Positions 16,898 through 23,573 of a stretch of DNA of 32,545 bases are shown in pieces (the first letter of the stretch is position 1; each line of letters starts with the position of its first letter). The position numbers and the translations under genes were made by a program. The notes under the pieces were generated by a model. The model saw nothing but the letters and a program-made list of their open reading frames with translations, made no database searches and had not been told where the DNA came from. The stretch is from a bacterium (GTDB taxonomy: Bacteria > Patescibacteriota > Patescibacteriia > UBA9934). The stretch is from assembly GCA_020053275.1 (NCBI GenBank), contig JAGVNL010000010.1, forward strand, positions 1 through 32,545, read 5' to 3'.

Positions 16898-17564
16898 ATG
16901 GAAGCTCCCGACACGCCCATTCCTGAAGAAAAGCTTTATACGAAGCAGGGGTAGGAAATATTTTCCTCACTTCTACCATGTCGACAATGGGTAAATCCTG
17001 TTTTCTTCCCATGTACGCACCATGACTCGACCACATATAATTATCCAACTGTTTCAGGGCGACTGGCCAGTCATCAACACGGCCTTCACGCCAGCTGGGA
17101 CTAGTGAGATCGAGAGCATTACAGTGAATATAACGAGGTAAATGAAAATATTGAGCATCCTCGGTTATATGAATAGCTAAATAAACAGCTTCAAACAATC
17201 TCCCTCGTCGATTATTTTGACGATTGAAATAGCGAGCAAATCCCATCTGAAGTTTATGCATAAATTTTTCTATGCCCTTGTCTTGCTTCTGTATCAATTC
17301 AAGATGAAAATGATTCGGCAATAAGCAGTAACTAATGATACTGACTAATGGATCTCGTTCGTGCTGTAAGTCGTACGCTCCAGCTAACAATACTTCATTA
17401 TAAAGCGGGTCAGTGCCTGGATTACGATAATTTGCGTCATTGAATAGATAAAGATACTGCTGAAACTTATTATAATCATCAAAAGTTTCAAAGACGATCC
17501 TCTTATCTACGCCTCGGTTAAGAACATGATATGACTCTCCGGTACCCAAAATTATTTTTCGCAT
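16860..17564 (-). CDS. REP-associated tyrosine transposase (RAYT, Y1_Tnp)
   Basis: ESYHVLNRGVDKRIVF, LLPNHFHLELIQ (HUH), MQMGFARYFNRQNNRRGRLFEAVY-like region, YIHCNALDL; start assigned to MRKIILG. Confidence 0.9.
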   Translation of the reverse strand: MRKIILGTGESYHVLNRGVDKRIVFETFDDYNKFQQYLYLFNDANYRNPGTDPLYNEVLLAGAYDLQHERDPLVSIISYCLLPNHFHLELIQKQDKGIEKFMHKLQMGFARYFNRQNNRRGRLFEAVYLAIHITEDAQYFHLPRYIHCNALDLTSPSWREGRVDDWPVALKQLDNYMWSSHGAYMGRKQDLPIVDMVEVRKIFPTPASYKAFLQEWACRELPCASGLLETGEVT

Positions 17565-22734: not shown

Positions 22735-22810
<76 letters not shown>

Positions 22811-22836
22811 AAAAACAGGCATTTGCCTGTTTTTTT
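22811..22836. terminator. Terminator after tRNA-Pro(CGG), potentially bidirectional
   Basis: AAAAAACAGGCA-TT-TGCCTGTTTTTTT. Confidence 0.85.
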
Positions 22837-22837
22837 G

Positions 22838-23013
22838 TTGGCTTGGAGAAAGTCAACTGCTTGGCTTTCGTCGGGATTTGAGCATCGCGAGGTATGAAGT
22901 GAGAGCTCGGCGCTCTACTTCATACCGAGGCGGTGCCCAGCCCGAACCTTAGTTGCGACGAGGTGAGAGGCGCGGGCAAATCCCGCCAGTTTCTCTTGTT
23001 TTGGCCAATTTTT
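22838..23013 (+). ncRNA. Candidate structured non-coding RNA (long irregular hairpin)
   Basis: Nested pairs TTGGC/GCCAA, GAGAAA/TTTCTC, CAACT/AGTTG, TCGGG/CCCGA, GCATCGC/GCGGTGC, GGTATGAAGT/ACTTCATACC, AGAGC/GCTCT; 3'-side hairpin GCGGG-caaat-CCCGC; ends TTTTT. Strand uncertain. Confidence 0.5.
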
Positions 23014-23025
23014 AAGTTCTGCACA

Positions 23026-23108: not shown

Positions 23109-23573
23109 ATGTTCGCTCTGCTCCCACTTCTCACCCTCGCATTCGCTGCGGAACCTGTAAACACCGAGGTACCCAAGGCCGACCTCATCTCCAACTTCCT
23201 GTTCATCAACCAGGAAGCTGAGATCCCGACCGTGACGCTCATCGGTGGCCGCGACCCCCTCACAGGAATTTGGTGCCGCCTCTACACCATCAACGGCACG
23301 CGCGACGGCATCTCGTGGCACTTCCTCGTGCCCCATGATCGCTTCATCGCCTTCTACGATGAGGTGGTCGTCACGCCGACTGCGTACTATACCTACGCCG
23401 TCGCTTCCATCCCGGATGCGAAAGTGACGGTGACCGTCGAACCAGCGAAGCTTGAGATGGAGCTTTCACGCAATATCCTCAGAACAGGATTTGTCGGTGG
23501 GAGTTACTATGTCAACCTCGACCACGGCATCAGCTGCGAGGGCAGCGCCTGCGACTCGTTGCGGGTGAAGTAG
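23109..23573 (+). CDS. Small secreted hypothetical protein, GC-rich
   Basis: AAAGGAGG upstream of ATG; signal peptide MFALLPLLTLAFAAE; 154 aa; four Cys. Confidence 0.72.
   Translation: MFALLPLLTLAFAAEPVNTEVPKADLISNFLFINQEAEIPTVTLIGGRDPLTGIWCRLYTINGTRDGISWHFLVPHDRFIAFYDEVVVTPTAYYTYAVASIPDAKVTVTVEPAKLEMELSRNILRTGFVGGSYYVNLDHGISCEGSACDSLRVK

Follow-up and report, generated by a model that had tools for sequence, protein, structure and literature searches.

The structured region behind the tRNA-Pro(CGG) gene of the window (the whole stretch of 32,545 nucleotides that was analysed) is a decayed member of a multi-copy family, and probably represents a new RtT-like type of element: anchored to tRNA genes, spreading among them, and predicted to form a structured RNA in the sense of the tRNA. 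RtT comprises the rttR and tyrT repeats of Escherichia coli and has also been reported after other tRNA operons; until now it has stood as an isolated and little-understood oddity of gammaproteobacteria, and the reports that connect it with the stringent response are vague. Comparison of the copies in the window's genome (G000) and its relatives shows, at the level of sequence, a conserved structure, a fixed position and orientation after tRNA genes, arms that match the adjoining tRNA, and near-identical cores spread to different tRNAs. That this design recurs across Patescibacteria, its arms fitted in each case to the host tRNA, suggests that elements anchored to tRNAs form a widespread class.

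The copy in the window

The host gene and the parts of the window copy are as follows, with the evidence for each in brackets.

22735..22810, plus strand: host gene tRNA-Pro(CGG) (ARAGORN; Rfam tRNA model, 70.5 bits)
22791-22810, plus strand: 3' end of tRNA-Pro(CGG), R57-A76, the segment copied by the element
22811..22837, plus strand: first terminator hairpin AAAAACAGGCATTTGCCTGTTTTTTT, spacer between tRNA-Pro and element (sequence; equivalent position in relatives)
22838..22846, plus strand: degenerate inverted copy of the acceptor 3' strand, TTGGCTTGG (ideal TCGGGCTGG) (sequence; arm test on 102 copies)
22849..22868, plus strand: hairpin H1, AAAGTCAACTGCTTGGCTTT (sequence; MFE; found in relatives)
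22871..22988, plus strand: region matched by R1, the covariance model of the family core (61.4 bits, E 1.1e-12, whole-genome search)
22872..22881, plus strand: inverted copy of the tRNA-Pro T-arm, CGGGATTTGA (sequence; family arm statistics)
22891..22926, plus strand: palindrome GGTATGAAGTGAGAGCTCGGCGCTCTACTTCATACC inserted into hairpin H2, of which the 5' half is missing (repeat searches; comparison with intact copies)
22933..22977, plus strand: conserved hairpin H3 domain, GTGCCCAGCCCGAACC...GGTGAGAGGCGCGGGC (alignments A1 and A2)
22978..22989, plus strand: what remains of the direct (second) tRNA-Pro 3'-end copy, AAATCCCGCCAG (sequence; family arm test)
22990..23012, plus strand: eroded remainder of the second tRNA 3' copy and second terminator (empty tRNA-Pro site in the congener G003, L259)

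Comparison with intact copies shows that the window copy is missing the 5' half of H2 and that an unrelated palindrome (22891-22926) has been gained at this place, a separate repeat that also occurs at positions 8629-8661 of contig C30 of the same genome (L033) and at several sites in genome G020; its second tRNA copy ends after AAATCCCGCCAG. Because the copy is decayed, function is not to be inferred from it, and the fold read from it alone proves partly fortuitous, an instance of how structure prediction from a single decayed copy can mislead. All seven complementary segment pairs of the first-pass annotation are present when their starts are checked against the sequence, as are the side hairpin GCGGGCAAATCCCGC and the T-run; as seven nested helices they do not form the fold conserved in relatives. 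CAACT sits in the short hairpin H1; TCGGG belongs to the inverted T-arm copy and has its conserved partner in the 3' CAAATCCCG; and GGTATGAAGT..ACTTCATACC is the separate, inserted palindrome. The real clue in that annotation was the match of CAAATCCCGCCAG to the 3' part of tRNA-Pro.

The region is strongly structured: the plus strand of 22830-23025 has a minimum free energy (MFE) of -82.9 kcal/mol against -62.5 +/- 4.5 kcal/mol for 200 dinucleotide shuffles (z -4.48), none of which equalled it, and the minus strand of the same region gives a similar value (z -4.44). The absence of a convincing open reading frame was also rightly noted, the only frames over the copy being of 60-75 amino acids with GTG or TTG starts; the next gene downstream starts at 23109. 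Elsewhere in the window (17124-17345, minus strand) there is a weak match to a Y1 transposase (PF01797, 23.9 bits).

Anatomy, tRNA arms and conserved structure

A search of G000 and 95 relatives yielded partial copies, several in the former and many in the latter, some of them at contig ends; the good copies whose flanks were inspected lie directly after a tRNA gene and its terminator. In G000, intact or clear copies follow tRNA-Met, tRNA-Tyr, tRNA-Gln and tRNA-Pro(CGG), and remnants follow tRNA-Ala(TGC), tRNA-Glu(TTC) and tRNA-Glu(CTC). A further copy, on contig C12, has tRNA-Lys arms, starts at CCA and a terminator, and appears to have been separated from the tRNA-Lys of contig C39. This tRNA-Lys locus (L031 at the start of C12, L056 at the end of C39) is seemingly split by another insertion, the ends of which are mutual inverted copies, with CACCA and the terminator duplicated.

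After the tRNA, the parts come in this order: first terminator; inverted copy of the acceptor 3' strand; H1; inverted T-arm copy; a conserved domain of H2 and H3, whose internal loops are fixed; the tRNA segment that runs from R57 to the 3' end, in direct copy; and, in many cases, a second terminator. The core amounts to about 80 nt in two hairpins. In many copies the inverted acceptor arm extends the stem of the first terminator without a break, and in several copies from other Patescibacteria the T-run terminator between tRNA and element is absent, so that the two could be co-transcribed. Another palindromic family of about 125 nt (TGAATTGAGACTAGTTTGGGTGCGG...GCCCAAAATAGGCCAATTCAGG) occurs near tRNAs at L053, L077, L034 and L046 (G000 contigs C16, C6 and C18; contig C82 of the congener G004), and a second family of hairpins, distinct from the present one and carrying both the acceptor and the T-arm in inverted copy, follows tRNA-Gln (L264 in G003, contig C16; L261 in G004, contig C35) and is also nested within the tRNA-Gln copy of L032, suggesting that the tRNA-arm plan is used by more than one core.

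Covariance model R1, built from 23 aligned cores, recovers 127 distinct copies, 102 of which have a tRNA gene on the same strand 24-350 nt upstream (median 67), with 16 amino acids represented. Many of the other 25 lie at contig starts; where enough upstream sequence is available, some stand behind eroded tRNA 3' ends (L107, L221), a few have no recognisable tRNA, and one stands behind a tmRNA-like 3' end (L189; Kaiserbacteria, CP066682). The arms follow the tRNA that each copy adjoins. In 49 of the 102 linked copies, the direct copy reproduces its own tRNA 3' end exactly over 17 nt. When the tRNAs were shuffled among the linked copies in 500 rounds, the scores observed for the direct copy (1474, against 944 +/- 14.5 permuted), the inverted T-arm (683, against 521 +/- 8.4) and the inverted acceptor arm (602, against 511 +/- 7.2) were reached in no round. 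The inverted T-arm agrees at 7 or more of 9 positions in 60 of the 102; many have a poor inverted acceptor arm or none, and it reaches at least 7 of 8 in only 30.

The core itself covaries. Among the 23 cores, 19 of the 30 predicted pairs are changed on both sides, and the covariation score of 0.484 compares with 0.142 for shuffled data and at most 0.068 with slid partners; covariation in relatives, named as a check by the first-pass annotation, supports the structure. The earlier description of the feature as structured and unannotated is retained; the idea that it stands alone gives way to one of many copies tied to tRNAs. In the 127 distinct copies, among which related ones are not independent, core pairs include 55 G.U against 17 A.C mismatches, and one U.G wobble is retained in 92 of 125 copies. 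Since G.U outnumber A.C and this wobble is retained, the tRNA-sense strand is predicted to act as RNA, and the orientation that had been left open can be set by this excess and by the position of the linked copies on the tRNA strand.

Most helices are almost strictly Watson-Crick, so that part of the covariation could have arisen by template-switch correction of palindromes at the DNA level. On one rival reading the element is a DNA palindrome of the REP/BIME type with no RNA function, its covariation being the product of quasipalindrome correction in replication. Such an origin suits a palindromic, multi-copy sequence with almost no wobble intermediates in a genome that holds other palindromic repeats, and RtT itself has been reported as belonging to BIMEs (PMC2965389). 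However, the internal loops GGA/GA and CGA/GAGA and the U.G wobble are kept throughout the phylum, where correction would be expected to erase them; with the predominance of G.U over A.C and the placement tied to tRNAs, this makes the explanation an unlikely one.

Insertion, spread and rival readings

Comparison with empty sites shows that the element inserts at the tRNA 3' end, leaving one complete 3' end and terminator upstream of it and a second downstream. The tRNA-Tyr sites of the congeners G001, G003 and G004 lack the element, and the tRNA-Tyr, terminator and flank of G004 equal the sequence after the second copy in G000; thus G000 gained the insertion, and the old 3' end and terminator were left downstream. 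The tRNA-Pro locus of G003 (L259) is the empty counterpart of the window, in which the displaced copy is eroded, and the flank 3' of 23012 matches this orthologous site. For both tRNA-Tyr and tRNA-Pro, the empty site has a single, restored tRNA 3' end. Simple insertion does not account for tRNA-Met (L034, L046 and L263 in G000, G004 and G001), where G000 and G004 have the first and second terminators in opposite order and the terminator of the empty site in G001 corresponds to the second in G000 and the first in G004.

Cores have moved between tRNAs. The core behind tRNA-Tyr in G000 is identical to that behind tRNA-Met in G004, and in ten pairs, cores with an identity of 95% or more lie beside different tRNAs, each with the arms of its own tRNA. 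In these pairs the direct copy matches its own tRNA at 16.6 of 17 positions, against 9.8 of 17 when crossed, and the inverted T-arm at 7.25 of 9 against 5.65 of 9, with little difference for the inverted acceptor arm. That the arms change and the core stays constant argues against slow co-evolution.

With R1, the element is detected in 31 of the 73 genomes from the order, where its distribution among genera is patchy, and, under strict filters, in 26 of 380 genomes sampled across the phylum. An exact 21-mer scan of GTDB genomes returned 100 matching stretches; R1-positive matches with a lineage in the title are all from Patescibacteria (some R1-positive records are titled only 'bacterium'), and carriers include Uhr-, Portnoy-, Kaiser-, Taylor-, Gribaldo-, Yanofsky-, Moran-, Magasanik-, Nomura-, Kerfeld- and Wolfebacteria, among others. 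The 21-mer matches from named other phyla (Pseudomonas, Nocardia, Rhizobium and others) contained no R1 match and were dropped. The diagnostic 21-mer is absent from IMG/VR viral contigs, and a viral origin is rejected on this ground; a plasmid search with the tRNA-containing stretch as query covered, among the matches listed, the tRNA part only; and a literature search found no description of the element in Patescibacteria or the CPR.

No candidate mobilising enzyme tracks the element by co-occurrence: Y1 transposases are present in 21 of 31 carriers and 28 of 42 non-carriers (p 1.0), reverse transcriptases in 21 of 31 and 25 of 42 (p 0.62), and tyrosine recombinases, counted but not typed, in nearly all genomes, so that carriers are not distinguished. 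An integrase gene would not fit into copies of this length. On another rival reading, the element is a non-coding cassette that a site-specific recombinase, for which the host Xer is a candidate, would move through crossover in the universal T-loop sequence GTTCRA, with the direct copies as attL and attR and the folded strand as substrate, as in integron attC. The extent of the direct copies, from R57 in the T-loop to the tRNA 3' end, recalls many tRNA-integrated elements; the empty sites fit; and a tyrosine recombinase is available in nearly every genome, although its presence does not separate carriers. What makes such a cassette improbable is that a carried site would bring the old tRNA 3' end with it, whereas it is the new tRNA that the two copies and the inverted arms match; nor were the integron core boxes GTTRRRY/RYYYAAC recognised by eye in the element.

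The reading that we favour, an RtT-like element expressed with its tRNA, would work as follows. The core is closed on its 5' side by the inverted host T-arm, often with the acceptor strand too, and on its 3' side by the direct tRNA 3' copy. The tRNA and the element would be read together, by read-through of the first terminator or where no terminator intervenes, and the element RNA may fold into a helix that resembles the acceptor and T stems and ends in CCA. Its release could depend on tRNA-processing enzymes, as reported for RtT RNA, which is described as being freed from the transcripts of tRNAs and as having a link to the stringent response (PMC4986893). The arms would be re-made from the new host tRNA at each move, and the element would persist mainly because insertion leaves the tRNA unharmed, a complete 3' end and terminator remaining; a benefit to the host is possible. 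More tentatively, it may be a gene-less mobile element, found in many lineages of Patescibacteria and of common ancestry with E. coli RtT, whose two ends are built anew from the target on each move, about 20 nt of the host tRNA 3' end being copied both directly and in inverted form. To our knowledge, no described transposition mechanism rebuilds both ends from a target tRNA, and the mechanistic question is how a constant core acquires direct and inverted copies of whichever tRNA adjoins.

Two further readings fare worse. The element might be a control switch of its tRNA, in which the inverted arm pairs either with the 3' end of its own tRNA, disabling it, or with the second copy, freeing it, while the core senses a signal. 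The continuity of the inverted acceptor arm with the first terminator hairpin in many copies and a predicted fold of tRNA plus element in which the 5' part of the tRNA is paired to the second copy would suit this; sporadic occupancy among congeners, decayed and orphan copies and the lack of a tRNA preference render it very doubtful. As for a free-standing RNA in the size and shape class of 6S, the suggestion of the first-pass annotation, size and z-score fit, but the tRNA-matched arms refute it: the element is multi-copy and tRNA-bound, and the Rfam search at the window copy (6S RF00013, SRP, RNase P, tmRNA and all other families) gave three tRNAs as its only credible matches.

Comparison with RtT and other known systems

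Among the known elements compared, only E. coli RtT is built in this way. At tRNA-Tyr, RttR consists of an inverted GGGGAAGGAT, a core and a direct AATCCTTCCCCCACCACCA, in units of 178 bp. Copies of the own-tRNA 3' end occur in the RtT elements of tyrV, proK, argQ and lysQ (Tyr, Pro, Arg and Lys); those after proK, argQ and lysQ have 18-19 nt from their own tRNA at the end, and at proK and lysQ the terminator is repeated too. The likeness of design is clear: both RtT and the new family follow tRNA genes on the same strand, measure about 130-180 nt, occur in tandem units, join an inverted T-arm, a core and a direct own-tRNA 3' copy (18-19 nt), and have the motif GGATGAGAA in common, and RtT at proK and lysQ also shares the order tRNA, terminator, element, terminator. 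The new family differs from RtT in core sequence and hairpins, in having H1 between the acceptor and T-arm copies, in a direct copy that starts 1-2 nt earlier, and in that all its named carriers are Patescibacteria. The Rfam RtT model (RF00391, gathering score 45 bits) is blind to it, with no match in the window region, the scanned family loci or G000 at E up to 10. Conversely, R1 run unfiltered ranks RtT copies at the top of two E. coli sets (2.6 kb, 13.6 bits, E 0.0088; 21 kb, 12.8 bits, E 0.12) in the same register; these matches are weak (12.8-13.6 bits) and partly driven by the tRNA arms, and homology between the two is suggestive only.

Likenesses to other systems are partial. Palindromes of the REP/BIME type are also multi-copy and extragenic, whereas the element is bound to tRNA 3' ends, has target-matched arms, is larger, keeps its internal loops and shows no association with Y1 transposases. 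Integrative elements at tRNA 3' ends likewise duplicate the segment from the T-loop to the 3' end; unlike them, the element has no genes, spans about 170-200 bp, uses many different tRNAs and carries inverted copies as well. Finally, tRNA-like structures such as tmRNA and viral TLS share with it a closing helix that resembles the acceptor and T stems and ends in CCA or the discriminator, a feature predicted for the element, in which a two-hairpin domain replaces the T-loop and one hairpin replaces the D and anticodon arms.
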